From an uncultured Alphaproteobacteria bacterium (GTDB lineage: Bacteria; Pseudomonadota; Alphaproteobacteria; Rhodobacterales; Rhodobacteraceae), in the NCBI GenBank assembly GCA_902625475.1, contig CACOBR010000003.1, positions 62,001 to 126,000 on the forward strand: 64,000 nt of DNA, in the 5' to 3' direction. Shown in pieces: positions 8,057 through 61,159 of this stretch (position 1 is its first letter; every line of letters begins with the position of its first letter). The notes below the pieces were generated by a model. It made no database searches and was not told the origin of the DNA. It saw only the letters and a program-made list of their open reading frames with translations. The translations under genes were made by a program, and so were the position numbers.

Positions 8057-8797
8057 ATGAATTGGACTGACGAAGGACTTTTATTAAGTGTTAAACCGCA
8101 TGGAGAAAGAGCAGCAGTTATTCAAGTTTTAACTGAAAATAAAGGTCTTCATGCTGGATTAATCCAAAATGCTTTTTCGAGAAAAATGAATTCTACTTTA
8201 CAACCTTCTAATCAACTCCATTTAAATTGGTCTAGTCGGTTAGAAGAACATTTAGGAATTTACAAAGCTGATTTATTAAGGAGCAGAGTTGATATTTTTT
8301 TATATAATAAGCTTGCTTTAGATGTTTTTAATACAATATCTGCTCTTTGTTTGTCGACGTTAGCTGAAAGAGATCCAATACCTGGACTATATAAAAATAC
8401 TACAAATTTTCTTGACCAAATAACTAATATAAAAAAATGGGAATTTTTTTATATTCATTGGGAATTGAATTTATTAGCATCTTTAGGTTACGGTCTTGAT
8501 TTAAAAAAATGTGCTGCGACTGGTACCACAGAAAATCTTTTTTATATTTCGCCCAAATCTGGGAAGGCTGTTTGTAAAGAAAAGGGTTTTAAATATGATA
8601 AAAAACTTCTACGTTTTCCTACAATTTTGAGGGATGTAGGAAAAAATTATGAATTTAATCGGTCGGATTTATTAGATGGGTTAAAAATAACAGGTTTTTT
8701 TTTAAAAAAATGCCTTATTGATTCCCTACAGAATAATCAGACTATAACTATAAGACAAAGATTAATCGATACCCTATCTAATGAGGAAAATACCTGA
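8057..8797 (+). CDS. recO: DNA repair protein RecO
   Basis: DEGLLLSVKPHGERAAVIQVLTENKGLHAGLI and core gene order. Confidence 0.92.
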   Translation: MNWTDEGLLLSVKPHGERAAVIQVLTENKGLHAGLIQNAFSRKMNSTLQPSNQLHLNWSSRLEEHLGIYKADLLRSRVDIFLYNKLALDVFNTISALCLSTLAERDPIPGLYKNTTNFLDQITNIKKWEFFYIHWELNLLASLGYGLDLKKCAATGTTENLFYISPKSGKAVCKEKGFKYDKKLLRFPTILRDVGKNYEFNRSDLLDGLKITGFFLKKCLIDSLQNNQTITIRQRLIDTLSNEENT

Positions 8798-8841
8798 TTT
8801 AAGCCATATAAATAGGGGTTTTAATTTTCTATTTCTCTGAA

Positions 8842-8955
8842 AAAGGCTCAAAAGGTGGAGTAAAAGGTGGACTTTTTCAACTTTTCATTTCCAATATGAC
8901 AGATATGACACTTATGACACCCACCCCCAGCCATATCCTTGAGGGTACCCAGAAA
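8842..8955 (+). repeat. dispersed intergenic repeat, copy 1 (left half)
   Basis: ..AAGGTGGACTTTTTCAACTTTTCATTTCCAATATGACAGATATGACACTTATGACACCCACCCCCAGCCATATCCTTGAGGGTACCC.. Confidence 0.85.
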
Positions 8956-9056
8956 TTCATCATTAGTTATTTCGATATACTTGATAAGTATTGAAATAAA
9001 AACACATAAAAATTACTATTATCAATATTAAAAATATAAGATAACCAAGGATTAAA

Positions 9057-12942: not shown

Positions 12943-13080
12943 TAATTTATTTCCATTTTTCTAACTATTATTTGAATTTAACTTTTTTAAATTATAATTT
13001 ATAAAATGAACTTTATTGTCAATTCATGATAAAACAAATTAAACTTAATAATAAATTACCTTTACATATTTTTTCTAAAA

Positions 13081-13220
13081 CGATGAGAAAATGGTCGATT
13101 CCCTAGTAGTTATCAAGGGGGACTTTAAGGGGGAGAATTTTGAGTTTTCGTTTTCAATATGACACTTATGACACCCACCCCTAAGACATATCCTTGAGGG
13201 CACCCCCAAAAACCACAAGT
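13081..13220 (+). repeat. dispersed intergenic repeat, copy 2
   Basis: ..GTTATCAAGGGGGACTTTAAGGGGG..GAGTTTTCGTTTTCAATATGACACTTATGACACCCACCCCTAAGACATATCCTTGAGGGCACCCCCAAAAACCA.. Confidence 0.9.
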
Positions 13221-15029: not shown

Positions 15030-15150
15030 TTAAAATACACTTAATACCTCTAAAACATATCCTTGAGGGTACCCCAAAAACCATAGCATATTGTTAGCAA
15101 GTACGACTACTCACACATTTTGGGTATGAATATAAAAATCTTTAATCTTC
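15030..15150 (+). repeat. dispersed intergenic repeat, copy 3
   Basis: ..ACATATCCTTGAGGGTACCCCAAAAACCATAGCATATTGTTAGCAAGTACGACTACTCACACATTTTGGGTATG..ATCTTTAATCTTC. Confidence 0.9.
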
Positions 15151-16279: not shown

Positions 16280-16400
16280 AAACCCCATTCCTAAAACTCA
16301 TAGCCTGTTATTAGCAAGTACTACTGCTCACACATTTTGGGTGGGGAAGGTAAACATCTCTAATCTTCACACATAAGATATTTCATGTAATATTATTCTG
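16280..16400 (+). repeat. dispersed intergenic repeat, copy 4 (right half plus extension)
   Basis: CATAGCCTGTTATTAGCAAGTACTACTGCTCACACATTTTGGGTGGGGAAGGTAAACATCTCTAATCTTC.. Confidence 0.88.
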
Positions 16401-17550: not shown

Positions 17551-17551
17551 A

Positions 17552-18739: not shown

Positions 18740-18815
18740 AGCACTACATCCACCCCTAAGACATATCCTTGAGGGTGCCCCAAAAAACCCAAAGTATATA
18801 TATTGGTAAGTAGTA
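18740..18815 (+). repeat. dispersed intergenic repeat, copy 5
   Basis: ACTACATCCACCCCTAAGACATATCCTTGAGGGTGCCCCAAAAAACC. Confidence 0.85.
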
Positions 18816-20895: not shown

Positions 20896-21028
20896 CATTT
20901 ATTTAGAGATTGAGGAGGTATTTAAGTATTGCCTCCTCTTTTGATTAGGACTTATCAAATACTTCTCCAAATTTTAAGTTTTTAAATATAGCATTACTTT
21001 AAAAACGAAAACGTATTTAGAAAATACA

Positions 21029-21130
21029 AAGGTGGCCTTTTTTGAGTTTTCGTTTCAAGATGTCACACATGTCATCCACCCCTAAGGCATATTCTTAAGG
21101 TTACCCCAAAAACCTTTAATTGTTGTTAGA
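21029..21130 (+). repeat. dispersed intergenic repeat, copy 6
   Basis: AAGGTGGCCTTTTTTGAGTTTTCGTTTCAAGATGTCACACATGTCATCCACCCCTAAGGCATATTCTTAAGGTTACCCCAAAAACC. Confidence 0.85.
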
Positions 21131-23813: not shown

Positions 23814-23867
23814 TGATCGGGGTGATTGGATTCGAACCTACGACCTATGGTACTCCAAAAGCCATAG
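23814..23867 (-). pseudogene. tRNA-Pro-like 3' remnant (anticodon-arm-like hairpin, T-arm and acceptor 3' strand)
   Basis: Reverse strand CTATGGCTTTTGGAGTACCATAGGTCGTAGGTTCGAATCCAATCACCCCGATCA: contains GGTTCGAATCC and CACCCCG acceptor strand as in bacterial tRNA-Pro; no 5' half (D-arm) seen. Confidence 0.7.
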
Positions 23868-23890
23868 CCTATTATTAGCACGTATTCCTC
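23846..23890 (+). repeat. dispersed intergenic repeat, copy 7 (right half joined to tRNA-Pro-like remnant)
   Basis: TATGGTACTCCAAAAGCCATAGCCTATTATTAGCACGTATTCCTC. Confidence 0.85.
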
Positions 23891-25599: not shown

Positions 25600-25792
25600 A
25601 TTATGATAAGTACGATAAAAAGATGGTTGATACTCTAGTAGCAATCCAAGGGTGATAAAAGGGGGACTTTTTTGAGTCTTCGTTTCCAATATGACACTTA
25701 TGACATCCACATCTAAGACATATCCTTGATGCCACCCCAAAAACTATAGCCAATTGTAAGAAAGTATTACTACTCATACATTTTGGTTTGGG
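25600..25792 (+). repeat. dispersed intergenic repeat, copy 8 (longest, near full length)
   Basis: ATGATAAGTACGATAAAAAGATGGTTGATACTCTAGTAGCAATCCAAGGGTGATAAAAGGGGGACTTTTTTGAGTCTTCGTTTCCAATATGACACTTATGACATCCAC..CATTTTGGTTTGGG. Confidence 0.9.
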
Positions 25793-30099: not shown

Positions 30100-30155
30100 G
30101 TGAACAGCTAAACGCTATTTCACTGGGTTTGGCAAGAGTGGATCCTACACATTAA

Positions 30156-30270
30156 AAATATGATACTTATGAAACTCATGTCACCCGCCCCTAAGATATA
30201 TCCTTGATGGCAACACAAAAACCATAGCAAATTATTAGCAAGTGCCACAGCTCATATATTTTGGTTGGAA
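30156..30270 (+). repeat. dispersed intergenic repeat, copy 10
   Basis: ATATGATACTTATGAAACTCATGTCACCCGCCCCTAAGATATATCCTTGATGGCAACACAAAAACCATAGCAAATTATTAGCAAGTGCCACAGCTCATATATTTTGGTTGG. Confidence 0.88.
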
Positions 30271-30321: not shown

Positions 30322-31071
30322 TTGAATTTAAAGGTAATTAACATGAATAATCTTAAAGAAAAAAAAGCCTTAATAATAGGAGCTAGTGGTGGAATGGGGA
30401 CTGCTGTGGCATCGATGCTTTCAAAAAATGGTGTTCATTGTTTCTTAGTTGGACGAAGTCAAGAAAAACTGAATGATATTTTTTCAAGTTGTTCTTCATA
30501 TGGAAACCCTTGTTTTATGTTCTCATGTGATATTTCAAATATGACTGAAATTAAAAAATGTTCAGAAAATGCAATTAAAAGTCTTGGTGGATTGAATTTT
30601 CTTATTCATTGTGCTGGCAATTATAATAAAGCTTTAGCTGATGAATGTGATCTAGAAATTTGGGATAAAATAATAGATACAAATTTGCGTAGTACTTATC
30701 ATTTTGCAAGAAACGTTCTTCCAGAAATAAATAAAAATTCTGGTGGTGCTGTAATTAGAATTAATTCAAGAGATGCTCCATATACTGGGATAGGCATCCA
30801 AACGTCTCAGAAACGAGGTATTGATGGATATATGGAAGTATTATTTGAGGATGTTAGAGAATATGGAACAAAAGTCTGCACAATTAATCCAGGATTTGTT
30901 GATACCTCTATGGTTAACCCTGAACGATTAAATCCTGAACTTATGATGCAACCGAATGATATAGCTGAAGCAGTTAATTTTGTTCTTAATACTTCAGAAA
31001 CTGCCTGTCCAACTGAAATATTAATACAGCCGCAGCGATCTCCATGGAAGAAAGCTGATATGCACATATAA
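30322..31071 (+). CDS. short-chain dehydrogenase/reductase
   Basis: IIGASGGMGTAVA (TGxxxGxG variant) and SDR fold; canonical YxxxK is replaced by TSQKR. Start could be ATG 30343. Confidence 0.8.
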   Translation: MNLKVINMNNLKEKKALIIGASGGMGTAVASMLSKNGVHCFLVGRSQEKLNDIFSSCSSYGNPCFMFSCDISNMTEIKKCSENAIKSLGGLNFLIHCAGNYNKALADECDLEIWDKIIDTNLRSTYHFARNVLPEINKNSGGAVIRINSRDAPYTGIGIQTSQKRGIDGYMEVLFEDVREYGTKVCTINPGFVDTSMVNPERLNPELMMQPNDIAEAVNFVLNTSETACPTEILIQPQRSPWKKADMHI

Positions 31072-31165
31072 CATACACCCCTAAGACATATCTTTGAGGG
31101 TAGAGCAAAAACCATAGCCTATTTTACCAAATACGACTGCTAACACATTTTGGTTTGGGGTGGGT
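31066..31165 (+). repeat. dispersed intergenic repeat, copy 11
   Basis: ACACCCCTAAGACATATCTTTGAGGGTAGAGCAAAAACCATAGCCTATTTTACCAAATACGACTGCTAACACATTTTGGTTTGGGG. Confidence 0.88.
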
Positions 31166-31839: not shown

Positions 31840-31969
31840 TAACTCTGACAATACAATATTTGTAGATACTATAAATGGTAGAATACTTAATTTACTCATA
31901 ATTATTTATACCAATCTTCTTGTTTTTATAAATAGGGTGAAAAGTTTAAATAAAATCTAGATTGTTTTG

Positions 31970-32085
31970 GTTTTAACATAACTAACATAACACCTACTCC
32001 TAAGACGTATCCTTGGGGGTAGGATACCACAAAAACCTATTATTATTTTAGTAAGTACTACCGCTCACATATTTTGGTTGTAAAG
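31970..32085 (+). repeat. dispersed intergenic repeat, copy 12
   Basis: AACATAACACCTACTCCTAAGACGTATCCTTGGGGGTAGGATACCACAAAAACC..AGTAAGTACTACCGCTCACATATTTTGGTTG. Confidence 0.85.
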
Positions 32086-33459: not shown

Positions 33460-33530
33460 AGGTAGGATACCCCAAACACGATAGCCTATATTAGCAAGTA
33501 CTTCTGCTAACACATTTTTGTTTGGATAAG
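33460..33530 (+). repeat. dispersed intergenic repeat, copy 13 (right half)
   Basis: GGTAGGATACCCCAAACACGATAGCCTATATTAGCAAGTACTTCTGCTAACACATTTTTGTTTGGA. Confidence 0.85.
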
Positions 33531-39724: not shown

Positions 39725-40197
39725 AAGATTCTCCTTTATGATTTTTTTATATTCCTTTAGTCAAGTATTCAGTGCACTGCTGCCCATCCGGCATCTAGGT
39801 CGTAGTGAACTCTGGTATTATAGAATTTAATAATCCTTGTGCCTATAAAAAAATCTTGAATACACTTATTGTAGAAGAAAACTTAACTTTACTTTAGCAA
39901 CTTCTACTACGCACTATTATTTAGTTATTTTTGAGTTTATTTTTGTAAATTTAATATTCTTGCAAATCATTAAAGGTTATTGTATATATTTTTTGTTGCA
40001 GGGGGGATCTTTGATTTTCTAGACTTAGCGCTGAGCAAGCCTTAAGCCAAGCGAGTCACTGCAACACCATTTTTTAATTTTTAAATTACTGTTGATACCT
40101 CCGCTAACATATTTAAGGACGTAATTAATTATATATAAATATAAGTTTTTTTATTTACTAATTTAGAATGCATTTGAAAATTATGCTTACTTCATTT

Positions 40198-40285
40198 GTT
40201 AGTATGATAAGAAAACATATAGTGAACTAGTTGCTATTCAAAGTTCACAAAATAGGAACTTTTTTGTAGAACTTAGATAAAATAT
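40198..40285 (+). repeat. possible degenerate left end of the dispersed repeat
   Basis: AGTATGATAAGAAAACATATAGTGAACTAGTTGCTATTCAAAG.. compared with copy 8 left end. Confidence 0.4.
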
Positions 40286-40370
40286 AATAAGCTTGAAAAA
40301 GTTGATAGGAGGTTATCACTTTTTTTATTGTTTTTTTGGATGATAATAATCACTTTCCCCATTAATTTAA

Positions 40371-40545
40371 AGAGTAATCGATACCTAATCTAATGAGGAA
40401 AATACCTAATATAAACTTTATAGATAAAGTGCCCGATTTTTTTTATCTCTTAAAAGACTGAAAAAGCTGACTTAAAGGGGCAGTTCGTAAGAGTTTCATT
40501 TAAATTTGACAGTCAAGATACTTATAAAATCTACCCTTTGGATAT
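40371..40545 (+). repeat. recO 3'-end duplication plus degenerate repeat left half (copy 15)
   Basis: AGTAATCGATACCTAATCTAATGAGGAAAATACCTAAT aligns with ATTAATCGATACCCTATCTAATGAGGAAAATACCTGAT at 8761-8799; similarity continues into the repeat. Confidence 0.75.
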
Positions 40546-40606
40546 ATTCTGATTCACACAATTCAAAAATCCTATTCTGTTAAAAAAAAGTAAATAACTT
40601 TATACA

Positions 40607-41071: not shown

Positions 41072-41149
41072 CTCTGAAACTTACTTTCAATAAATTATAC
41101 GACCAGAAATTGATTTTTGTAAAATGAAAAATATAGGGAAAATATGCAA

Positions 41150-41360
41150 AGGTGTGCGGTAAAGGGTGTGGTTAGTTAATTTTTCATAATAATATGACAG
41201 TTATGACACCCACCCCTAAGACATATCTTTTAGGGCACCTCAAAAATCATAGCATATTTTATCAAGTACTACTGCTCAAATATTTTGGTTTGGAAAGCAA
41301 ACATCTCTAATCTTCCAATATAGTATATTTCGTATAATATTCTTTTATGAAAATTTTATT
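41150..41360 (+). repeat. dispersed intergenic repeat, copy 16 (plus extension shared with copy 4)
   Basis: AATATGACAGTTATGACACCCACCCCTAAGACATATCTTTTAGGGCACCTCAAAAATCATAGCATATTTTATCAAGTACTACTGCTCAAATATTTTGGTTTGGAAAGCAAACATCTCTAATCTTCC. Confidence 0.9.
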
Positions 41361-43931: not shown

Positions 43932-43980
43932 TATTAATATATTAGGAATTCGCGGGAAAGAGTTTTCAGATTTTCTGATG

Positions 43981-44045
43981 CTTCCACAATAACTATAGCA
44001 TATTTTAGTAATTTATTCTGCTTAAATATTTTGGTTTGGAAAGAT
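43981..44045 (+). repeat. dispersed intergenic repeat, copy 17 (right half)
   Basis: CACAATAACTATAGCATATTTTAGTAATTTATTCTGCTTAAATATTTTGGTTTGGAAAG. Confidence 0.75.
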
Positions 44046-44067
44046 GTGAGGCTTTTTTAAAAAGTTT

Positions 44068-45111
44068 TTAATTTATGTTATTTCTTAAATATTTGAGTCT
44101 TTCAGCTCCTGACGGATGAGTAGACAACCAGCCACTTTTTACTTCATTCATACAAACAGATTTTTCTATTTTAGTTGCTATACAATAATGGTTTGTAAGT
44201 TTTTCGATCGCTTTTAAAAAACTTGTTTTTGACATACCAGTTTTCTCTAATAATTTTAAAGCAATTATATCTGCATCTTTTTCCAAATCACGACTCTTTT
44301 TTAAACCCCAAATGTTTATACCTATAAAAACAATTTCCTCAAAAATACTTTCATCTAGACCAAAAATCATCCAAGCAATTGAAGATAGACCGGCTATTTC
44401 TACAATCTGTTGTAAAGAATGCCTTTCTTTTATATGTGCTATCTCATGAGCTATCACAGAAAGAATTAAGTCATCATCTTTAAGAAGTTTAACAAGATCA
44501 TCAGTAATTATTATAGGTCCACCAGGTAATGCTAAAGCATTGGGTCCCAATATATTAGATTTATTAAATTTAATTTCTGGATTTTTATAAAGTCCTGAAT
44601 GTTTGAAAATCTTTTGAGATTTATCTTTTATTTCGGTTATTCTTTTTTCTGGAAGTTTTGATTTTTCAAGCAATGTTTTCGAAAGAGTTTTATAAGTTGA
44701 TTCACCAATTTTTTGCTCCCAGTTATGAGGAAAAAAATATACTAAAGTTGAACTAAATGAAATAAATAGGTATCGATAACCAATTACTAGTAAAATTATT
44801 GTTAATAATATAATGAAAACATTTTTTAATCTAAATTTATCAAAGTTTTTAAATAATAATTCATTTTTTGGAATTAGTAATTTTAAATCTATTTCGTTTA
44901 ATTTTTCTTTGGTAACAAATAAGATACCATTTTCTAAAAATATGCTTTTATCATTCTGAACAGATTGTACTTTTAGCAAATGGTATAAACGTTCTTCACC
45001 TTTGAAAATAGAAACTTTACTTTTTTCGATTACAATGCTGGCGGATTCTTCCTTCGAAGATCCTGGCATAAAAAAATCTCCATCAATTTTTTTTTTAGAT
45101 ATTGACTTCAA
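44068..45111 (-). CDS. M48 family metallopeptidase
   Basis: VIAHEIAHIKERHS zinc motif, TM helix upstream. Confidence 0.9.
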   Translation of the reverse strand: MKSISKKKIDGDFFMPGSSKEESASIVIEKSKVSIFKGEERLYHLLKVQSVQNDKSIFLENGILFVTKEKLNEIDLKLLIPKNELLFKNFDKFRLKNVFIILLTIILLVIGYRYLFISFSSTLVYFFPHNWEQKIGESTYKTLSKTLLEKSKLPEKRITEIKDKSQKIFKHSGLYKNPEIKFNKSNILGPNALALPGGPIIITDDLVKLLKDDDLILSVIAHEIAHIKERHSLQQIVEIAGLSSIAWMIFGLDESIFEEIVFIGINIWGLKKSRDLEKDADIIALKLLEKTGMSKTSFLKAIEKLTNHYCIATKIEKSVCMNEVKSGWLSTHPSGAERLKYLRNNIN

Positions 45112-46153
45112 TTCCTTCCATTTCTGAGTATTCTTCTCCCAGCGATGATAAATTCTTTTTTTCTGTATCTAGGAAAATATTTAAATCACCAATTATTTCG
45201 ATTTTTGTCGAATACGATAAATACTTATAAAATCTAATTTGTGCCCATGGGGACATAAGACCAAGTGTAATAGGGATTATTATTGCATTAGTAATTATTA
45301 TCCAGAGATAAGTAGCAGGATTTAATGTAGAATCAAAATTTGCAGAAATTTCGTTATTATTTGAATTACTTAGAATGGTAGCTCTTAGTAACATGTTTCT
45401 AGCAAAAATTCTGTATATAAAATTCGTGATAAAGATGATTGGTATCATTATAAAAAAAAGTATTTCAAATCCGTTTGAATAGTCATTGAATATTGTATCT
45501 ATATAGTCAAAATTCCATTCTATAAGATTTGCAATATCCCAAATTGTGTAAACAATAATACTATAAAAGATGATTAATGCAGGTAAAAAACCAGATTTAA
45601 ACGAATCTATATAATATTGTTTAATTGTTGTATCTGCTGAAAATCTAGATGTACCATATGAATGATTATTAGCATAATAAGTATAATAAAATTTCGTAAA
45701 AAGAGGTTGGAGAAAACCTAAAGAGAAGAAACTAATTACTGGACCTAAAACAAAATAAAGAAGTGTCTGCTTGTAATTTCCATGCCAATTAAATCTAATA
45801 TTCCTATAAGAAACCATACGTGCATTGAATCTTAAAGACGAATTAATTATAAAAGGAGAAAGAAAGAAAATTATGATAAAGCTTACAAAACTAAAAACTG
45901 GTATGTAAGAAGAACCTATTCCGAGTATAATAATAACAATAAAAGCAATTAATCTACCTTTAAAGATTTGCCAACCTGTAGCATGATAGGCAAAGGAATT
46001 TTCTAGAATATTTGTGTTATTATAAAAGTATTTAAGTCTTCTCACTTTTGCCCAGGCGCTAAAAATACCAATTGTGACTACAGTTAAAAGAATATTGGCA
46101 AGCCATATGCCAAAATATTCTATTGCTTTTCCTTTAAATTCTATTCCTTTCAT
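45095..46153 (-). CDS. YjgN/DUF898 family membrane protein
   Basis: FKGKAIEYFGIWLANILLTVVTIGIFSAWAKVRRLKYFYNNT; overlaps the M48 gene as in typical YjgN-M48 pairs. Confidence 0.88.
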   Translation of the reverse strand: MKGIEFKGKAIEYFGIWLANILLTVVTIGIFSAWAKVRRLKYFYNNTNILENSFAYHATGWQIFKGRLIAFIVIIILGIGSSYIPVFSFVSFIIIFFLSPFIINSSLRFNARMVSYRNIRFNWHGNYKQTLLYFVLGPVISFFSLGFLQPLFTKFYYTYYANNHSYGTSRFSADTTIKQYYIDSFKSGFLPALIIFYSIIVYTIWDIANLIEWNFDYIDTIFNDYSNGFEILFFIMIPIIFITNFIYRIFARNMLLRATILSNSNNNEISANFDSTLNPATYLWIIITNAIIIPITLGLMSPWAQIRFYKYLSYSTKIEIIGDLNIFLDTEKKNLSSLGEEYSEMEGIEVNI

Positions 46154-46571
46154 TCCATTTTTCCTTTAAAAAACTAAGCTAATTTACCTATCTATATAAT
46201 TAATGATTTCTTTAAGTTAAATTGGTTTAATTATAAAATCTACCTAAATTTTAAACTGTAGATTTTATGAATTATCACAGATAGTTATCTTCAATTTTTC
46301 TAAATCTCAAAGAGCATAATTTATACTCACTTTTTTAAGGAAATCACACAGTTTCAAATGAAAAATTATTGTTTTTATTCATTAAAACTTTAGGTAATAT
46401 CTAGTACTTCTATATCAATTTATGATATTGACTTCGTTTCAATTGACAGATTGAAGTTAAGAAAGTGATCATTATCTCATGATTTATGGATTATTGATAC
46501 AAGCAACTTGTTATTTTTGAACATAATCATTTTGTCCGTAACGGGAGTTAAGAATTGTATAGGCTATTAGG

Positions 46572-46994
46572 ATGAAAATAAATAATTTGATCCAGCTTGA
46601 ACCTTCAGAGATATCTGAAAGATTTTCAAAATCTTCGGGACCAGGCGGACAGCATATAAATAAAGTCGATACTAAAGTCGAATTACGTTTTTTTGCAATA
46701 AAATCCCCGAACCTTTCAAAGTCTGTTAAGGATAGACTAAAAGTAATTGCTGGTAATAAATGGACTCTTAATGGAGAAATTGTCATTACTGCTGAAAAAC
46801 ACCGATCACAGTCAAAGAATCGTGAATTAGCAAAATCAAAATTAGTGGGTCTCATTTTAAAGGCTCTTGAAAAACCAGTGTACAGATTACAAACGAGGCC
46901 AAGTAAGTCTGTAAGAATTCGAAGAAGTAATGAAAAACAAAAAAGGAGCAAAATTAAAGCTTTGCGTGGTCGAGTTAGGGATGGTCAAATTTAA
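46572..46994 (+). CDS. arfB: alternative ribosome-rescue factor / peptidyl-tRNA hydrolase ArfB
   Basis: SSGPGGQHINKVDTKVELRF GGQ motif and basic C-terminal tail. Confidence 0.9.
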   Translation: MKINNLIQLEPSEISERFSKSSGPGGQHINKVDTKVELRFFAIKSPNLSKSVKDRLKVIAGNKWTLNGEIVITAEKHRSQSKNRELAKSKLVGLILKALEKPVYRLQTRPSKSVRIRRSNEKQKRSKIKALRGRVRDGQI

Positions 46995-47327
46995 TTATTT
47001 TATTTTTTAATTAATAAATTTTTAAAATTAGATTAATTTAATAAAAAATTTAGAGTTTTTTTTTGAACATAAAATTTAAAATAATTATCCTTTGGACATA
47101 TCTTAATGAGTGGTTAGGAGTTTAAATAAATTTTATAAATAATAGCATTAACAATTGGCACATAAAATGATATACCCACGATCTATTTTCCAAACTGTCC
47201 TTTTAAATAATGGAGACAACTTTAAATTTTTCTAAAGATATTAGGTTGTAAGGCAATTGGATTGACTTTCTAATTTATTATAATAATAAGCCTACTCTTG
47301 AAAAAACTGAAATAATATGATGTTAAC

Positions 47328-48020
47328 ATGAATATGCTAAATACATTTATTAAACCAATGCATCGTGAAGGTATAAAATTTGTACTAATTTTTAGTATCA
47401 CTTCTTTGATTTTGTTTTTTATTTATATCCCTTTAGGTTGGGTTGGAATTGGTCTTACCATCTGGTGCTATTATTTTTTTCGAGATCCAAAACGTACAAC
47501 ACCAGTTCGAGACGGCCTATTAGTTAGTCCAGCAGACGGGGTAATTTCACTGATTGAAAAAACTATGCCTCCGCCAGAGCTTGATATAGGGAAAGAGGCC
47601 CTTACAAGGATAAGTGTGTTTATGAATGTATTTAATTGTCACGTAAACCGCTCACCTATTGCTGGCAAGGTTATGGAGATTAATTATCGTCCTGGTAAGT
47701 TTTTTAATGCTTCATTAGATAAAGCTAGCGTTGATAATGAGCGCAATAGTTTGGTACTTCAAATTCCTGACGGTAGGCAGATTATAGTTGTGCAGATTGC
47801 TGGTTTAGTTGCTAGGCGCATTGTATCATTTGTAAAACCTAAGCAGACATTGCGAATTGGCCAAAGGTTTGGACTTATCCGGTTTGGATCACGGGTGGAT
47901 ATATATTTACCAACTGGTGTGCAACCACTTGTTTGTCTTGGTCAAACAATGGTTTCTGGTGAAACGGTAATAGCAGATTTAACCAGTAAAGAATTGGCAC
48001 GTGATGGTAGAAAGGAATGA
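47328..48020 (+). CDS. psd: phosphatidylserine decarboxylase
   Basis: [30 protein letters not shown] (GS cleavage) motifs; followed by pssA. Confidence 0.95.
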
Positions 48021-48773
48021 TTGATGGGCAAAACCAGTAATCAAAAATTTGAGCTTTCACTTATTCAATTAGTACCTAACATGATGACTATTGCTGCTAT
48101 TTGTCTTGGGATAACTGCTATTAAACACGGCTTTGAAGGTAAATTTCAAAGTGCTGTCCAACTTATTTTATTGGCAAGTGTTCTTGATGGATTAGATGGT
48201 CGTGTAGCTAGGCTATTAAAAAGTGATAGTAAGTTAGGTGCAGAACTAGATTCCTTAGCAGATGTCTTGAATTTTGGGATTGCACCACCTTTTGTTTTAT
48301 ACTTCTGGGCTTTGCAAGATCTACAAGGCCTAGGTTGGTTTTCAGTACAGATTTACGTGGTTTGTTGTGTAGTTCGTCTGGCACGCTTCAACGTTAATAG
48401 TAAGTCTGATGAAGAAGTTAATTCCAACGGTTACTTTGTTGGTGTTCCAGCTCCAGCAGCAGCTCTTTTAGTTATGCTGCCTATGTATTTTTCATTCGCT
48501 TTGGGTATGGTTGATTTTTTACCATCTCTTGCTATCTGTGGACATTTAGTATTAGTAGGACTTTTGATGATCAGTAATATTCCAACCTGGTCATTTAAAG
48601 TTGTTACCACTTCCCCAAAAAATTCTAAATATTTTCTAATTGGCTTTGCTGTTATCGGCGCAGCTTTTTTAAACTATATTTGGTTAACCTTGATTGCTTT
48701 ATGCATAGGCTATATCCTACTGGTGCTATTTACTATTATCACTGGAAAGGCAAAACGCCCTATACAAATGTGA
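48021..48773 (+). CDS. pssA: CDP-diacylglycerol-serine O-phosphatidyltransferase
   Basis: LDGLDGRVARLLKSDSKLGAELDSLAD CDP-alcohol phosphotransferase motif. Confidence 0.95.
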   Translation: MMGKTSNQKFELSLIQLVPNMMTIAAICLGITAIKHGFEGKFQSAVQLILLASVLDGLDGRVARLLKSDSKLGAELDSLADVLNFGIAPPFVLYFWALQDLQGLGWFSVQIYVVCCVVRLARFNVNSKSDEEVNSNGYFVGVPAPAAALLVMLPMYFSFALGMVDFLPSLAICGHLVLVGLLMISNIPTWSFKVVTTSPKNSKYFLIGFAVIGAAFLNYIWLTLIALCIGYILLVLFTIITGKAKRPIQM

Positions 48774-48829
48774 TTAAAATTTAATATTAGCTAAATATTA
48801 ATTTACAAAAAATGAAATATTAAAAATGA

Positions 48830-48940
48830 TGGTAGGCTCACCAAAAACTATAAACTATGAGTTAGAAATTATTGAATCTAAAATATCTAGCGAAAACTCT
48901 TCCTACTTGTACTACTATGAAATAATTTTGGAATAATATA
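48830..48940 (+). repeat. possible very degenerate outlying copy (18)
   Basis: GGTAGGCTCACCAAAAACTATAAACTATGAG..TACTTGTACTACTATGAAATAATTTTGGAATA. Confidence 0.35.
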
Positions 48941-48979
48941 AGTTTACAATTAATTATAAAATTATGAGCGCTTTCAGGC

Positions 48980-50374
48980 ATGGAAAAAGTTTTAGAAATT
49001 CAAAAAAAAGCATTTTTGGAGGAAGGTCCTCCTTCTTTAGAAAAAAGAAAAGATCTTCTGAGAAGATGTGCAGCACTTATTGAAACTCATGAACAAAAAA
49101 TTATTAAAGCTTTAAATCATGATTTTCAGAACAGGTCTATAGAGGAAATAAAAATTTCTGAAATTGATCAAACTATAAGGAATATTTTATTTACAATTAG
49201 AAACTTAAAAAAGTGGGTGCAGCCTCAGAGAAGATTGTCGTCCCTTGGAACAGATTTACTTGGTGCAAAAAGTTATTTAAAGCCAACTCCGTTGGGAACT
49301 GTTGGATTAATTGCCCCTTGGAATTTTCCAGTGGGTCTAGTTTTTTATCCTCTTGCATCAATTTTTGCAGCTGGCAATAGGGCTATGGTTAAGCCGTCTG
49401 AAATTACATCAGCAACTTCCAGTGTAATTAAAGAGGGAGTAGAAGAGTATTTTGATGTTTCTGAACTTGCAGTTATAACTGGAGGCCCATCCATAGGAGA
49501 AAAATTTAGTAGCCTTAAACTCGATCATTTGCTTTTTATAGGAAGTAATCAAGTTGCAAAAAAAGTAGCTTATCAAACAGCAAAAAATCTAGTGCCTACT
49601 ACGCTTGAACTTGGGGGCAAAAGTCCAACGATAATTGGACAGAACGCTAATATGAAGCTTGCTGCTGAAAGAATTTTATTTTCAAAAACACTTAATGCTG
49701 GTCAGATTTGTTTATCGCCTGATTATGTTTTTATACGAAAAGATGATGAAGCCAAATTTATATCTGAATTACAGGAAACCTATTCTAAATTTTTTCCTAA
49801 ACCAAATAGTATGGATCAAACATCTATGGTTAACAAACACCATTTAAAAAGGATGCATGCGTATATTTTGGATGCAACAAAAAAAGGTGCAAATATACAT
49901 AGTTTAGGAAAAAATGATGATCTTGATAGGAACATGCTTTCAACTAAATTGGTCACTAATGTAAATGATGATATGGAAGTAATGAAAAACGAAATCTTTG
50001 GTCCTATCCTTCCTATAATGTCTTATGAAAATATTAACGAAGTTGTACATTATATTAACAAAAGAGATAATCCACTGGGACTATATTACTTTGGAAATAA
50101 AAAATCAGAACAAAACTTCGTCATAAATAATACAAGATCTGGAGGTGTGACTATAAACGATACTATGTTTCATATTTTACAATCCAGATTACCTTTTGGT
50201 GGTGTAGGTCAATCGGGAAATGGTTATTTTCATGGTTATGAAGGTTTTCTTAATTTCTCACATTTAAAGTCTATTTATTATCAGACACAAATAGACGCTA
50301 TTTTGTCAATGATAAGACCTCCAAGAGGCAAAGCCTTTAATGTTTTATCAAAGATAATGAAAAAGCTTGGATAA
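48980..50374 (+). CDS. aldehyde dehydrogenase (coniferyl-aldehyde-dehydrogenase-like)
   Basis: APWNFPVGL, LELGGKSP, NAGQICLSPDY motifs. Confidence 0.9.
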   Translation: MEKVLEIQKKAFLEEGPPSLEKRKDLLRRCAALIETHEQKIIKALNHDFQNRSIEEIKISEIDQTIRNILFTIRNLKKWVQPQRRLSSLGTDLLGAKSYLKPTPLGTVGLIAPWNFPVGLVFYPLASIFAAGNRAMVKPSEITSATSSVIKEGVEEYFDVSELAVITGGPSIGEKFSSLKLDHLLFIGSNQVAKKVAYQTAKNLVPTTLELGGKSPTIIGQNANMKLAAERILFSKTLNAGQICLSPDYVFIRKDDEAKFISELQETYSKFFPKPNSMDQTSMVNKHHLKRMHAYILDATKKGANIHSLGKNDDLDRNMLSTKLVTNVNDDMEVMKNEIFGPILPIMSYENINEVVHYINKRDNPLGLYYFGNKKSEQNFVINNTRSGGVTINDTMFHILQSRLPFGGVGQSGNGYFHGYEGFLNFSHLKSIYYQTQIDAILSMIRPPRGKAFNVLSKIMKKLG

Positions 50375-50376
50375 AA

Positions 50377-51999
50377 ATGATGAAACAAGCAGATTTTGTC
50401 ATCGTTGGTGGAGGTTCAGCCGGAGCAGTTATAGCATCACGGTTAAGTGAGAATAGTAAATTTAATATTTGTCTTTTAGAGGCGGGGGGTTGGGGTAGTA
50501 ATATTTTATTCAGAGCACCCGCTGGAGGATTATTAATGTTAAGAGATAAGCCTAAATTTAACAATTGGGCATTTCATACGATACCTCAAAAGGGTCTTAA
50601 TGGTAGAAAGGGTTATCAACCTAGAGGTAAAGCCTTAGGAGGATCTAGTGCAATAAACGCCATGATTTACATAAGAGGTCAAAAAGAAGACTATGACGAG
50701 TGGGCAAACTTAGGAAATGATGGTTGGGCATGGAAAGATGTATTACCTTTTTTTAAAAAAGCTGAGAATAATGAAAATGGTCCGTCAAAATTTCATGGTA
50801 ACGGCGGCCCTCTTGAGGTATCAAATCAAAAAGTACCAAGACCTATTTCAAGTGCGTATTTAGAAGCTTGTGCAAACTCTCAAATTAAAATTAGAAATGA
50901 TTTTAATACTGGTAACAATGAAGGGGCAGGCTTTTGGCAATCAACTATCTTTCACTCAAAAAACAAAAATGGACAAAGATGTTCTAGTGCAGCTGCATAC
51001 ATTTTACCCTATATTAAGGTCAGGAAAAACTTAAACATTGTTACCAAAGCAACTGTTACAAAAATAATATTTGAGGGGAAAACCGCCGTTGGAGTTGAAT
51101 ATATTCAAGGTGGAAGGAAGAAACAGGTAAGAGCAAAAAAAGAAGTCATTATATCCGCAGGTTCTCTAAAATCACCGGTAATTTTACAACGGTCTGGTAT
51201 AGGTGATGCAGAAGATATTCATCCTCATGGAATAAGAATGTTGCATGAATTACCTGGAGTTGGAAAAAATCTTCAAGATCACATTGACTTTAACTTTTGT
51301 TTTACAACAAGTGATAAGAATACGTTAGGAATTTCTCCAACAGGATTTCTAAAAATCCTAGGAGAAACGGTAAAATGGCTATTTCATGGGAATTCAATAA
51401 TTTCATCAACTCTTTCTGAAGCTGGAGGCTTTTTTAAAACAGATCCTTATATGGATAGACCGGATATACAAAACCATTTTGTAATAGGCCTTATTGATGA
51501 TCATCTGAGAAAAATCCACTATGGGTACGGATATTCTTGCCATGTATGCCTTCTTAGACCCCATTCAAGAGGAAAAGTTTCATTGTCTTCGGCAGAAATT
51601 TCTGATGCTCCTATTATAGATCCAAATTTCTTAAATGATTTACGTGATCTAAAATCATTAATTAAAGGTGCAAAATTTACTCATAATATTTTAAATACTC
51701 CTCCACTTACAAAATATAAATTAAAGGAAATTTATGGAGTACATGATAATCTTAGTGACTTAGAGTGGGAGAAACATATTAGAGATAGAGCTGACACTAT
51801 TTATCATCCTGTAGGAACATGCAAAATGGGTAATGACGAGTTAGCTGTTGTAGATAATAAACTAAAGATCAAAGGGCTAAAGAATATTAGAGTATCAGAC
51901 GCCTCTATAATGCCCAAAATTACTTCAGGTAATACTAACGCGCCTACAATTATGATTGCTGAAAAGTGTTCATCAATGATAATAAAAGAATATTCGTAA
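50377..51999 (+). CDS. GMC-family oxidoreductase (choline-dehydrogenase-like)
   Basis: DFVIVGGGSAGAVIASRLSE, GKALGGSSAINAMIYIRG, YHPVGTCKMG motifs. Confidence 0.93.
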   Translation: MMKQADFVIVGGGSAGAVIASRLSENSKFNICLLEAGGWGSNILFRAPAGGLLMLRDKPKFNNWAFHTIPQKGLNGRKGYQPRGKALGGSSAINAMIYIRGQKEDYDEWANLGNDGWAWKDVLPFFKKAENNENGPSKFHGNGGPLEVSNQKVPRPISSAYLEACANSQIKIRNDFNTGNNEGAGFWQSTIFHSKNKNGQRCSSAAAYILPYIKVRKNLNIVTKATVTKIIFEGKTAVGVEYIQGGRKKQVRAKKEVIISAGSLKSPVILQRSGIGDAEDIHPHGIRMLHELPGVGKNLQDHIDFNFCFTTSDKNTLGISPTGFLKILGETVKWLFHGNSIISSTLSEAGGFFKTDPYMDRPDIQNHFVIGLIDDHLRKIHYGYGYSCHVCLLRPHSRGKVSLSSAEISDAPIIDPNFLNDLRDLKSLIKGAKFTHNILNTPPLTKYKLKEIYGVHDNLSDLEWEKHIRDRADTIYHPVGTCKMGNDELAVVDNKLKIKGLKNIRVSDASIMPKITSGNTNAPTIMIAEKCSSMIIKEYS

Positions 52000-52225
52000 G
52001 ATATGAATTTTTAATTTACCAGTTTTTTTCGTAAGTTTCATTTTTGATTTATTTGAAAAATGTCAAAAAAAATTTATAAAGGTGTAGTTTACAACCTTCA
52101 TTTTTTGAACATAACCAACACACAACTTTATATTTGGATTTAATACTTATTTTTAAATATTGAATAGAAAAATCAAACATGCAAAGTTTCTTTAATAAAT
52201 TATAACGCTTTAATATATTATTAAA

Positions 52226-52987
52226 ATGTTTATTAACCTTCTATTAAATGAACCAGTTATATTATTAATAATAATTTTAATTGGTTTTATGGCTGGAATT
52301 ATAAAAGGTATTGTCGGTTTTGCATTACCAATGATTTTAATTACTGGATTAAGTATTTTTATCCCAATTGAACAAGCACTCGCAAGCTTAATACTGCCAA
52401 CTATCATTACTAATTTCATTCAATCATTTACTATAAGCAAATCAACTTTTTTTTCGACAATTGTTAATTATAAAACTTTTTTATTTTTCTCTAGTATTTT
52501 TTTGATTGTAAGTAGTCAATTCTACTCAATATTCTCTGCTGAATTAATAATGGGTTTTGTAGGAATTATACTTTTTGCTTATACATTTTCACAAATTTTA
52601 GGATTTCAATTTAAGTTTAAAAATAATGGTTTTTTAACTGTAATTACTGGATCCATAAATGGTGTTTTAGGTGGAATTGCTGGGATATGGGGTCCCTTAA
52701 CAGTTTCTTATTTAATGTCATTAAAAATTGAAAAGAATGAACAGATTAAAGTGCAGGGAATAATGTATAGTTTAGGAAGTATTTTTTTACTACTTGGTCA
52801 TTTATATTCTGGTATTTTCAACAAATATACTTTCTCATTGTCTTTATCTTTAGTTCCATTATGTATTATAGGTTTATTTATTGGTTCAATTATTAGAAAT
52901 AAAATCAAACAAACTACTTTTAAAACTTTCACTTTAGTAATGATATTATTGGCTTCAATTAATCTTATAAGGAAAGCATTTTTATGA
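52226..52987 (+). CDS. TauE/SafE family sulfite-exporter-like membrane protein
   Basis: GFMAGIIKGIVGFALPMILI and GSINGVLGGIAGIWGPL repeat motifs. Confidence 0.82.
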   Translation: MFINLLLNEPVILLIIILIGFMAGIIKGIVGFALPMILITGLSIFIPIEQALASLILPTIITNFIQSFTISKSTFFSTIVNYKTFLFFSSIFLIVSSQFYSIFSAELIMGFVGIILFAYTFSQILGFQFKFKNNGFLTVITGSINGVLGGIAGIWGPLTVSYLMSLKIEKNEQIKVQGIMYSLGSIFLLLGHLYSGIFNKYTFSLSLSLVPLCIIGLFIGSIIRNKIKQTTFKTFTLVMILLASINLIRKAFL

Positions 52988-52990
52988 TTT

Positions 52991-53863
52991 TTAAGTTAAA
53001 GTTTTAAAATTGGATATATTCCGGAATAAAATTATAAAACTTAAAACAATTAATATGGAACCTATATAAAAGTTAATTGAAGGATATTCTGAAAATAACA
53101 AAATCCCCCACAGTGTATTGAAAAATATAACCACGGTCGAGAATGACGCTAAATTTGAGGCTTCTTCAATTTGAAAAGCCTTTATAAGAAGAAAATGACC
53201 TAAAGTTGAAACTATACCAATAACTACAAAAAATGGGATATCTTGCATTACAAAAGATTTCCAATCAAAAAAAGCAAATAAAAAACTAGATAATATTGTA
53301 CCAGTTAAAGCTGTATAAATTATGCTAGTAAAAGGATTTTCTCTTTCTCCAAAATATCTAGTTATGAGTCCAAAAATAGCCAAAGAAATAGCTGCAAATA
53401 GGGGAAAAAAGGAATAAATAGAAAAGGAACTACTAGATGGATTGATTATTATCAAAGCACCAATTAATGCTAAAGAAACAGTTAAAAATTTAATTACTAT
53501 AAAATTAGATTCTTTTAAAAAAAAAATTGAACCTAAAGTTAAAAATATTGGACTGGTTTTATAAATTGCAGTTGCATTTGCTAGATCTGTTTTTGTAAAT
53601 CCTATAAAAAAAAATAAAGCTGCAAAAAACAAGCAAACTCCTCTGGATATATGAAGATGTAAAGAATGAGTAATTAATTTAGTTTTGATGAAAGGAAAAA
53701 AGATTAAGAATAAAACGATTGTCTGACTAAAAAACCTTATCCAAATTACTTCAGTAATTGGATATTTAAAGGAAAGATATTTAGCTGTTACTTACATTAT
53801 TGAAAAATTAAACCAAGCAAAAATGAAAAATAAAACAGCTTTTTTATTCAAATTTCTAAGCAT
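52991..53863 (-). pseudogene. EamA/DMT transporter interrupted by a single in-frame TAA
   Basis: One continuous reading frame MLRNLNKKAVLFFIFAWFNFSIM*VTAKYLSFKYPITEVIWIRFFSQTIVLFL..; TAA at 53792-53794 (reverse); ORF track starts only at the internal TTG 53632. Confidence 0.8.
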
Positions 53864-54016
53864 TTAATTTCCTCATGGCTAAAATAAAAACATTGAGTCA
53901 TAATTTGATAAATTATGTTTTCTCTTTTAAAATTATATACAGCATAAAACTTACTTCTCCTCCTACCTTCCTTTTTTAGCATACAAAATAAAAGTACTTT
54001 TTTTAATGAGATATTT

Positions 54017-55423
54017 CTATTTCAGAATTATTTCAGGTCCCATTACTAAGTTTGGAAGCAATGTAGAAATCCAAGGGACGTAAGTTACTAGTATTAAAAA
54101 AACAAATAAGACGCAAAGAAATGGAAGGGCAGCTCTTACTACAGATAACATTGGCATACCAGCTACACCGGAAGTTACAAAAAGATTCAGTCCAACGGGT
54201 GGAGTAATCATTCCAATTTCCATGTTTACTACCATAATGATACCTAGGTGGATGGGGTCAATGCCTAATTCTATAGCGATTGGGAAAACTAATGGTGCAA
54301 CAATAACGAGTAACCCAGAAGGTTCCATGAACTGTCCACCAATCAGAAGGATAACGTTAACTATTATAAGAAACATAATTGGTCCAAAACCGGCTGATAA
54401 CATTGCACTTGCAACTTGCTGCGGAACTTGTTCGTCTGTTAGAACATGTTTAAGAATGAGTGCATTTGCTATTATAAATAATAAAGTAACTGTTAGCTTT
54501 CCGGCTTCTAATAATGTTTTCTTAGTATCCTTATGGAAGAATGCCGTAGCTATCGCCCAAGGTTGGAGCCATAATGATTTTCTTTTAGGCTCCTCTGCAA
54601 ATGTACTTGAAAGTTGATTTTGTCTTCTCTCAGCAAGTGGTCCCATATCCTTATAGATAAAGTTTGCAATGAAGAAAGCATAAACTGCAGCAACTGCTGC
54701 TGCCTCAGTTGGAGTAAAAATACCACCATAAATACCCCCAAGTATAATTACTATTAGGAAAAGACCCCACCCTGCTTCACGTCCTGAAGCAAAAACTTCT
54801 TTCCAACCCTTCCACTCTCCCTTAGGTAAGTTTTTAATTTTCGCAATTATATAAATGGTAGTCATTAGCATAAAACCAGCTAGAAGTCCTGGAATTACAC
54901 CTGCAAGGAACATTCGACCAACAGAAACTTCTACGGATGCAGCATATACAACCATCACAATAGATGGAGGGATAAGAATACCCAACGTACCAGCATTACA
55001 TATGATACCTGCAGCAAACTCTTTTGAATATCCAACCTGGACCATACCTCCAATCACAATTGTTCCTATAGCTACTACTGTTGCTGGTGAAGAACCCGAC
55101 AATGCTGCAAATAACATGCATGCAAAAACACCAGCAATCGCCAAACCTCCTGGCAAGTGACCCACACATGCAATTGAAAACCTGATGATCCTTTTTGCAA
55201 CCCCACCAGTTGTCATAAATGTTGATGCTAGAATAAAAAAAGGAATTGCAAGTAGTGTATAGTGACCCTCAAAAGCACTAAATAGTGTTTGAGCAATTGA
55301 CGCCAATGAACTATCAGAAAATACTAATAAAAAAAGTACAGAGGACATACCAAGAGCAATTGCGATTGGAACACCTATTATTAGCAGGCCAATTACTAAG
55401 GAGAAAAGAAGTGCAACTTCCAT
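54017..55423 (-). CDS. TRAP transporter large permease subunit (DctM)
   Basis: Hydrophobic permease with GVPIAIALGMSS and ALSGSSPATVVAIGTI motifs. Confidence 0.93.
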   Translation of the reverse strand: MEVALLFSLVIGLLIIGVPIAIALGMSSVLFLLVFSDSSLASIAQTLFSAFEGHYTLLAIPFFILASTFMTTGGVAKRIIRFSIACVGHLPGGLAIAGVFACMLFAALSGSSPATVVAIGTIVIGGMVQVGYSKEFAAGIICNAGTLGILIPPSIVMVVYAASVEVSVGRMFLAGVIPGLLAGFMLMTTIYIIAKIKNLPKGEWKGWKEVFASGREAGWGLFLIVIILGGIYGGIFTPTEAAAVAAVYAFFIANFIYKDMGPLAERRQNQLSSTFAEEPKRKSLWLQPWAIATAFFHKDTKKTLLEAGKLTVTLLFIIANALILKHVLTDEQVPQQVASAMLSAGFGPIMFLIIVNVILLIGGQFMEPSGLLVIVAPLVFPIAIELGIDPIHLGIIMVVNMEIGMITPPVGLNLFVTSGVAGMPMLSVVRAALPFLCVLFVFLILVTYVPWISTLLPNLVMGPEIILK

Positions 55424-56088
55424 CAGTTTTTATCCAGCAATTGGTGGCTATCTTTTTGGAATTCTTTTTCTACCTCATGACTTTCTATCAAACGGTCTGT
55501 TTTACCATTCCAGAGTGACAATGCTGCTTGTAAAAAACGGAAAAGCATCAATGCCATAGATAATGGAAGAACAAAATATGGAAGCAAACGAGGTATTTTC
55601 TCATACTCTTCTCCTTCATTAAATACATTTTCCATCCATCCCAATATAGCAGGGTGAGGTATATCATTGACTTCATACCATCCTTTATTGCGATACTTCT
55701 CCTCAAACCCTAGAGGAAACCAACGTCCCTCTGTACCAGGAAGATTAGCAAAGTTAGCCCAATAATCCCACGCACCCTTCAGCATCAATAAACTAAATGA
55801 GATGCATATAAAAACTGCAATAAGACCCAAAATACGACGTGGTTTGGGATCAAGAACATTAATGATAATATCTACACCCAGGTGTGAACCTTTCTTAATG
55901 GCATAGGAAGCTCCTAGAAGTACAAGCCAACCGAAAAGAAAAACTGTTAGTTCTAATGCCCAAAGTATATTATTATTAAATCCGTACCGAGTTACAACAT
56001 TGGCAAATGTGATCAATGTCATTACTCCCAAGATGCCTGCAATTAGCATCTCTTCAATTTGGTCTATCAAGGATTTTGAGTGATCCAT
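55423..56088 (-). CDS. TRAP transporter small permease subunit (DctQ)
   Basis: Four TM helices, overlaps DctM. Confidence 0.9.
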   Translation of the reverse strand: MDHSKSLIDQIEEMLIAGILGVMTLITFANVVTRYGFNNNILWALELTVFLFGWLVLLGASYAIKKGSHLGVDIIINVLDPKPRRILGLIAVFICISFSLLMLKGAWDYWANFANLPGTEGRWFPLGFEEKYRNKGWYEVNDIPHPAILGWMENVFNEGEEYEKIPRLLPYFVLPLSMALMLFRFLQAALSLWNGKTDRLIESHEVEKEFQKDSHQLLDKN

Positions 56089-56145
56089 ATCGGACCTTTC
56101 AAGTTTTCTGGAGGTAGCTACTCTACCTCCAGATAGTTTTTTATC

Positions 56146-57138
56146 CTAATTTAGGGCCTGTGCTGCATCAATCATATCTTGACCAACATCATCAGAAAAT
56201 TGATCCCATACTGGTTTCATTACATCAACCCAAACTTGACGCTCTGCTGCGCTTAGCGTTCGTATAGTTCCACCTGCATCAATAATTGCCTGTCTATTAG
56301 ACTGATTTACAGCAAAAGACTCAGCATTTCGAAGTTCTGTAACCTCTTTAAGGATTGTTAAGAACTGGTCACGGACGTCTGCATCAAGACTGTCTAACCA
56401 ATCGACACTAGTGACAACTAAATAGTCAATTATTCCGTGGTTAGTTTCAGTGATACCATCTTGTACTTCAAAGAATTTCTTACCATAAATATTAGACCAT
56501 GTATTTTCTTGCCCATCTACTACACCTTGCTGAAGCCCACCATACACTTCAGAAAAGGCCATTTTTTGAGGGGCTCCTCCGATTGCTTTCATTTGAGCGA
56601 CTAGAACATCTGATGACATAACTCTAAATTTTAAACCATTAGCATCAGATGGTGAAATTAATGGTACATTAGCAGACATTTGTTTCATTCCATTATGCCA
56701 AAATGTCAAACCCTGAAGGCCACGGCGCTGCATGCTATCTAGCAAGTTCTGACCTGCTTCTGAAGATTGAAATGCATCTACTGCCTCAATGTTCTCAAAC
56801 ATGAAAGGTAAGTCGAAGATACGAAACTGTTTAGTGAATTTCTCAAACTTAGATAGTGATGGTGCTGCAAGCTGAACATCACCTTGAAGTAGTGCTTCAA
56901 GAACCTTGTTATCATCATATAGGGTTGAATTTGGGAAGACCTCCATACAGGCCTTGCCGTTCATCTCTTTATTTACACGTTCGCTCAATAGTGTTGCAGC
57001 TATTCCCTTGGGATGTTTATCAGTGTTAGTTACGTGGCTAAATTTAATATTGATTTCTCCCGAATCGCAGGCTGCGAATGCAGTTGTTGCACTGACCGCC
57101 AATGTAAGGGATAGTGCTGTTTTTAACAGAAATTTCAT
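56146..57138 (-). CDS. TRAP transporter substrate-binding protein (DctP family)
   Basis: Signal peptide and LKFRVMSSDVLVAQMKAIGGAPQKMAFSEVYGGLQQGVVDGQENTWSNIY. Confidence 0.94.
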   Translation of the reverse strand: MKFLLKTALSLTLAVSATTAFAACDSGEINIKFSHVTNTDKHPKGIAATLLSERVNKEMNGKACMEVFPNSTLYDDNKVLEALLQGDVQLAAPSLSKFEKFTKQFRIFDLPFMFENIEAVDAFQSSEAGQNLLDSMQRRGLQGLTFWHNGMKQMSANVPLISPSDANGLKFRVMSSDVLVAQMKAIGGAPQKMAFSEVYGGLQQGVVDGQENTWSNIYGKKFFEVQDGITETNHGIIDYLVVTSVDWLDSLDADVRDQFLTILKEVTELRNAESFAVNQSNRQAIIDAGGTIRTLSAAERQVWVDVMKPVWDQFSDDVGQDMIDAAQALN

Positions 57139-57368
57139 TATATACTCCTTTATTTTATTTCGGTAGCGTTTTTAAAATAATGCTGACGCAATATATAAAA
57201 ACTTAATTTTTTTATAGTTTTCATAAATAGGAATAGGAGTCTAGTGTCAACATAGGATACAGGGGTTTGATGAAACAATTAGTCGCAAAACTATTCATTT
57301 TTTATGATTTAGTATTTCATTGAAATTTGCGATATTAAATTAAACATTGTATACCTAAGTAGTATTAA

Positions 57369-58262: not shown

Positions 58263-58488
58263 TGAAAAGAAAAAAATTAGCAGATATGTTATTTATCTTT
58301 ATGAAATAAAAAAAATAATTATTAAGTTACCTGATTGCTTAGGGATAAATATTGGGAAGTTTCATCTTCATTCTTTATATTCATATTCAAAGTAAAAAAA
58401 TTATATATGATTAGTATGAGTAAAAATTAAAGTAACTTAAAATAAGAAATTCCTATCAAGTTCTTAAAATATAAACTATCTTTCTAAA

Positions 58489-59013: not shown

Positions 59014-59113
59014 CACTACTCTATTTAATTTTATAAAACTGTATTTTGTTATAACCAAAATTTTGCTAGAAATAGTAAATGAATAATTTCGAATTTATCA
59101 ACAGGAATTTAAT

Positions 59114-59519: not shown

Positions 59520-59686
59520 GTAATCCTTTCAATTAAAATATTGAATGGATTTAATTTTTTTTCTTTAAATGAGACAAAAAGTATTTTATGCATGCGACAA
59601 AAAAATAGCCTTATTCATTATGTTTTTATTTAATTATATTTCATAATTATTATTAACTAAATATCCATAAAAAAGTTTAATTAAAA

Positions 59687-60139: not shown

Positions 60140-60256
60140 TGTTCATTTGTTTTACTGAATTTTATAATAATATAATTTTATTTTATATACATTTCTTATA
60201 TCACCAATTGTATTTGAAATCTTTCAATTAAAACAATATGAAGGTCAATTAATAAA

Positions 60257-61156: not shown

Positions 61157-61159
61157 TTT

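Follow-up and report, generated by a model that had tools for sequence, protein, structure and literature searches.

The closest published case to the locus analysed here is that of the ssrA islands of Dehalococcoides, many of which stand in tandem within ~100 kb downstream of a single target gene. Either the target or a repeat of its 3′ end bounds each island, and the integrase is target-specific (PMC3146451). Some of these units are without integration genes, conserved genes lie past the last repeat, and the integrase gene of one homologue itself contains the repeat (PMC3146451). Excerpts of the reports on additive flexible islands in marine and freshwater bacteria, namely Actinomarinales (PMC7771536) and Methylophilaceae (PMC10872708), describe a constant locus with strain-specific content and small cassettes, where recurring repeats of the target 3′ end reveal the latest insertions.

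Here we analysed a window of 64,000 nucleotides (G000:C3:62001-126000; positions below are those of the window unless a contig is given) from a 1.5-Mb genome assembly that is 66% complete, called W in pairwise comparisons, together with the corresponding stretches of relatives (handles G001 to G011). The starting point was a preliminary description of the window according to which the 3′ end of recO recurs 31.6 kb downstream of the gene.

Results

A second recO 3′ end within the repeat array

The recurrence of the recO 3′ end proved to be real. The core of the similarity (repeat family D18) reaches 84% over 58 nt between 8757-8814 and 40369-40426, and a whole-genome search extended the match between the recO end and the 40-kb copy to 71% over ~170 nt (E 3.9e-16). 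Local alignment of 8757-8926 with 40369-40536 scored 91, far above dinucleotide shuffles (maximum 32, mean 19.2, s.d. 2.6, n=1000) and above the maximum of 39 reached by 2000 real windows of the same contig. At both places the recO end is followed, as had also been described, by the left half of the dispersed repeat; at the 40.5 kb copy the right half of the repeat and the exchange core are degenerate or absent. The reported start at 40371 located the copy correctly, and the homologous unit begins further upstream, at 40166, as delineated by a profile of the relatives' junctions that includes an integrase remnant (Table 1). The copy was said to bracket the array and to mark an old boundary of the insertion zone. 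What stands of this is that one inserted element appears to end there, at a boundary internal to the array; as an outer limit it fails, with two further repeats beyond it, the last ending at 44.04 kb, and with up to five recO-end copies held within the arrays of relatives.

Table 1. Features of the recO-associated array, in window coordinates.
Feature	Position	Strand	Basis or remark
recO, target gene	8057..8797	+	Pfam RecO_C/RecO_N; final ~42 nt inside attachment core
core1: recO 3′ end plus ~56 nt beyond	8756..8853	+	putative exchanged attachment core, attL type; homogenised across species, repeated in relatives' arrays
Iteron arms adjoining recO (two ~12-nt, several 9-nt iterons, CACCCC)	8854..8930	+	arms ignore relatedness
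core2 (CATATCCTTGAGG) and beginning of right half at recO	8931..8968	+	
Repeat; left side is an integrase 3′-end remnant, without recO-end block	13079..13217	+	repeat profile, integrase-end search
Dispersed repeat, core2 region and right half	15046..15126	+	repeat profile
Dispersed repeat, only right half	16290..16346	+	repeat profile
Dispersed repeat, core2 and part of right half	18745..18815	+	left edge of cassette in common with G001 (97.7%)
Dispersed repeat	21028..21129	+	right edge of the G001-shared (97.7%) cassette beginning at 18745..18815
Dispersed repeat joined to tRNA-like 3′ fragment	23837..23886	+	repeat profile
Repeat; left side is an integrase 3′-end remnant, without recO-end block	25604..25792	+	integrase-end match E 1.2e-11
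Dispersed repeat	30154..30268	+	repeat profile
Dispersed repeat	31055..31159	+	repeat profile
Dispersed repeat	31882..32080	+	repeat profile
Dispersed repeat, right half	33464..33525	+	repeat profile
Tyrosine integrase, decayed 3′ end (last ~35 codons)	40166..40265	+	relatives' junction profile
Spacer, integrase remnant to recO-end copy	40266..40368	+	conserved in related junctions
core1, second copy (recO 3′ end; the reported duplication), putative attR-type remnant	40369..40465	+	similarity to recO end
Arms and degenerate core2 behind recO-end copy	40466..40581	+	repeat profiles, relatives' junction profile
Dispersed repeat past recO-end copy	41146..41293	+	repeat profile
Final repeat remnant, array end, adjoining M48 peptidase gene	43976..44039	+	repeat profile

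An integrase 3′ end precedes the copy

A profile built from ten junctions between an integrase 3′ end and a recO-end copy, taken from G001, G007, G009 and G010 with this window excluded, matched 40166-40550 with an E value of 8.3e-41, integrase 3′ end included. The integrase-end profile by itself gave a weak match at the 40-kb copy (E 0.0086), placed at the conserved spacing: the integrase end and the recO-end copy are about 87 nt apart here and 86-97 nt apart elsewhere. The closest junction to the 40-kb copy was found in G010 (15700-16190; 316 identities in 416 aligned columns). Copies of the recO end away from recO occur here and in G001, G007, G009, G010 and G011, and their junction with an integrase recurs in all of these relatives except G011. 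An integrase 3′ end lies upstream in 11 of the 13 such copies and went undetected upstream of the remaining two (G001 27215 and G011 4476); most of the other junctions retain just the final 24-60 integrase codons. No integrase gene survives in the window, a full-length integrase of this kind was not found in the assembled 66% of the genome, and an intact one occurs only in G001. The type of iteron at each integrase end in G010 mismatches, by eye, the arms at the preceding junction, which suggests that the individual elements there are scrambled. Given the junction-profile match and an integrase remnant at the right distance, we read the 40-kb copy as an old integrative element's right end; judged from sequence, it very probably represents a decayed attachment site of attR type, belonging to an element that a tyrosine recombinase integrated site-specifically at the recO 3′ end.

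The intact element of G001 measures 10 kb, and its order is recO, core1, arms, core2, a large RTX-repeat gene (the cargo), an AAA_25 ATPase of the replication type, an HTH_36 protein, a 270-aa protein, a 411-aa tyrosine integrase and the second recO-end copy. The integrase gene lies 86 nt ahead of this copy, the first in G001 away from recO. Its product matched Phage_integrase (E 2.6e-22) and carries a SAM-like N-terminal domain, with an arm-binding domain scoring below the cut-off, and its phage matches include streptococcal satellite phages at 26-28% identity. In this element, iterons of the GGGGCAC type accompany the integrase end as well as the recO side, and would fit arm-type sites on both sides of core1.

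Exchange at the recO end

The complete repeat begins with core1, continues with two iterons of ~12 nt, two or three of 9 nt and CACCCC, and closes with core2 and a right half that is conserved. The reading frame of recO is intact in the window, and its 3′ 42 nt are 93% identical to those of G011, compared with 62-75% farther upstream. When the following 56 nt are included, core1 as a whole is 91% identical between W and G011, against 74% for the body of recO. The arms beside recO are 53% identical in the close pair W-G002, though recO is 96% identical, and 82% identical in the distant pair G001-G011, though recO is 74% identical. Core1 and arms have thus been exchanged across species. A homogenised core1 next to arms that ignore relatedness is explained by exchange upstream of the arms, in core1, and the crossover would fall within this block. 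The suggestion in the preliminary description that the recO end is itself part of the recombination substrate is well supported, its role being that of an integration target restored at every insertion.

We considered whether core2 could be the sole crossover site, with elements entering downstream of a fixed recO and its arms, and with the recO end in the elements a passenger captured long ago by imprecise excision at the recO locus. Cassette boundaries are indeed located in core2, and the circular form would have the identical order of parts under either crossover. This explanation is nevertheless unlikely, because the recO 3′ end and the 56 nt after it are homogenised between species, and because arms between core1 and core2 that differ in close species and match in distant ones need an exchange upstream of them. 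Crossover in core1 is the reading that we retain for the insertion of whole elements. Core1 (TATCCAATGAGG) resembles core2 (TATCCTTGAGG), a likeness that we give as a lead only.

Small cassettes bounded by core2

A repeat profile of 268 positions, grown from the arrays of five genomes, placed repeats over 8.7-44.04 kb of the window. All 76 repeat copies in five recO-anchored stretches point away from recO. Over all fetched stretches, 166 of 167 repeat matches fall on one strand, a bias that describes each array separately, since stretches without a recO anchor were oriented by their own repeats. The content of the locus differs from strain to strain, with cassettes in common; those shared by different genomes begin and end inside core2, and their order differs between species. 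Of the left homology ends 31%, and of the right ones 16%, lie within 20 nt of core2 compared with 2% expected, figures that denote an enrichment and not an exact test, the counts being pairwise and redundant and the repeat itself able to stretch or cut alignments. At the far side of the array, G001 has a repeat remnant just ahead of the same M48 peptidase gene as in the window, and in G010 this gene stands at the array end.

Repeats in one orientation, cassettes common to species in different order and bounded inside core2, and the clustering of homology ends there would also be expected of an integron-like array, in which the recO end and arms form a fixed attI-like site, the repeats are attC-like and the second recO end is the end of a cassette that picked up the attI side. 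Against the integron-integrase model integrase_gron, however, the G001 integrase scored 26.5 bits where the cut-off is 265, and the repeat has no conserved fold, RNAalifold predicting no pairs across 29 copies (one strand, RNA parameters). The arms beside recO moreover differ between close species, so that the recO-proximal site is not fixed, cassette genes occur on both strands, and recO-end copies are linked to integrase ends. The integron reading was rejected on integrase type and site fold, and we regard it as very improbable. Least credible of all is a plain segmental duplication, in which recombination between repeats, homologous or illegitimate, set a copy of the recO end and first repeat 31.6 kb away without an integrase: the array is rich in direct repeats usable by homologous recombination and the 40-kb copy is diverged and old, but the copy opens with an integrase 3′ end, its spacing fixed, instead of further recO coding sequence, the similarity to recO ends about 45 nt ahead of the stop codon, and the same junction is present in four relatives.

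Several other features of the array were recorded. A 28-nt tRNA-like 3′ fragment at 23818-23845 (reverse complement GGTCGTAGGTTCGAATCCAATCACCCCG) is joined to the left of a repeat; its near matches, in G002 and G010, lie close to the corresponding cassettes, and a search of five genomes gave no further copy. The fragment may be what is left of an element that targeted tRNA genes. A Sel1-repeat protein gene (17390-18154) contains three 108-nt tandem units (17663-17986), and related genes occur in the G001 array at other positions. In G010 the 534-nt segment 38887-39420 recurs, inverted, directly behind the repeat at the recO side, which is a rare breach of the one-strand rule. An Rfam scan of the window gave no match.

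The site without the island

In G003, G004, G005, G006 and G008, five relatives from the other branch of the genus, recO is followed 17-25 nt on by an acyl-CoA dehydrogenase gene. The distance from recO to the end of this oppositely oriented neighbour is 17 nt in G006 and G008, where Pfam identifies the dehydrogenase; a homologue occupies the same place in G003 and G005. The orthologue in the genome studied here lies at C3:131008-132615, on the same contig and strand, 60.2 kb from recO. A pair that is adjacent in relatives and 60.2 kb apart here indicates that the junction was opened by about 60 kb. The preliminary description had anticipated that relatives would show recO followed directly by sequence found here after 40.5 or 44 kb. 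A site without the island was indeed seen, and the sequence that follows recO there corresponds to a position of 69.0 kb, past the end of the window. The limit of the insertion zone, first placed at 44.04 kb, was moved: the dehydrogenase orthologue puts the edge of the opened interval at ~69 kb.

Between 44 and 69 kb the gene order is the same in G001 and partly the same in G010 and G009, and no repeats were detected in the part of this interval examined in the present genome. In G009 the dehydrogenase orthologue comes after an array, and the next genes (RapZ and others) are ordered as in island-free relatives. The block between the last repeat and the dehydrogenase (44059-64000 and on to ~69 kb) contains genes for an M48 peptidase, a DUF898 protein and others; the DUF898 gene is located elsewhere in G005 and G006.

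Distribution of the repeat

With a sequence-only model of the core2 region, the repeat was detected in all but one of the 12 genomes of the genus. In a class-wide sample, one of 384 genomes other than this one matched, with a borderline E value, and the repeat therefore looks restricted to the genus. Searches of viral contigs gave neither an exact core1 or core2 pattern nor any relative of recO or the integrase. The named close relatives are single-cell genomes labelled uncultured Alphaproteobacteria, which we take to be marine from their AG- isolate names.

Matches to the repeat were also seen away from the island. A two-site cassette with a 216-aa gene, aquaporin-like on reading of its translation, occupies the same place away from recO in G001 (C2 5828-7074) and G002 (C1 5628-6874), and model matches with the same score are present in G007, G010 and G011. 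The cassette seems to have become fixed at a secondary locus. In contig C5 of G005, a species whose recO is without an island, repeat-bounded segments adjoin genes apparently encoding ribosomal protein L21 and Obg. Contig G009:C7 ends at 65133 within the recO 3′ end, a break to be expected if assembly is confused by near-identical copies of this end.

Discussion

We propose that the attP of these elements lies just behind the integrase gene and carries core1, a copy of the recO 3′ end of ~98 nt, between iterons resembling arm-type sites. Crossover in core1 would provide recO with a new, equivalent 3′ end and leave the integrase and the second recO end at the far side of the element. Later elements would enter at the same place beside recO and push older junctions outward, presumably in this direction, giving a tandem stack. 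The old element in the window would have lost its integrase save for the last ~35 codons and had its cargo swapped since. One- or two-gene cassettes between junctions would be exchanged at core2, probably also by an integrase acting on them in trans. Many such insertions would have built a long, species-specific gene island at the recO 3′ end in this genus of ocean Alphaproteobacteria.

Tentatively, the locus could represent a genus-specific, non-integron cassette system, in which an integrase of the phage or satellite type, with a possible arm-binding domain, acts on two linked cores, stacking whole elements at recO through core1 and shuffling integrase-less cassettes of one to two genes through core2, with the last codons of the integrase kept in the cis-acting site. 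More generally, the locus illustrates how, in a marine genus with small genomes, genes gained horizontally are concentrated behind a single housekeeping gene, with neither integrons nor a tRNA as target, and how decaying junctions keep a record of earlier insertions. Should integrases of this kind mobilise core2 cassettes in trans, attachment sites of the phage type would do work that is usually credited to integrons.

Compared with known systems, chromosomal integrons are likewise directional arrays of small cassettes bounded by repeated recombination sites, and the uniformly oriented sites here do bound cassettes, but the integrase is not of the integron type and no folded attC was found. 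Tycheposons of Prochlorococcus and Methylophilaceae are also cargo elements of streamlined planktonic bacteria with a tyrosine recombinase; they target tRNA genes, whereas the target here is recO and the 64-kb window contains no tRNA gene. A literature search on recO as an integration target, in a limited collection, surfaced no precedent. The excerpts on additive flexible islands likewise describe tRNA genes as targets, and contain no description of an integrase tail in each repeat, which is kept in the junctions here. The Dehalococcoides islands share with this locus tandem units, repeats of the target 3′ end and members without an integrase; they differ in that their target is the tmRNA gene with a 20-bp repeat, compared with the end of a protein-coding gene and a ~98-nt block here, and in that a second exchange core here bounds the small cassettes. 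Of the marks of an accretion island, we found a target whose 3′ end is restored and has a duplicate on the far side, an integrase gene beside the att site (intact in G001, as 3′-end remnants elsewhere, including the window), an uninterrupted site in relatives, and one locus with strain-specific content and shared cassettes. We file the locus as a tandem accretion, or additive flexible island, on a protein-coding target, distinguished by that target, its long core, the retained integrase tail and a second exchange point.
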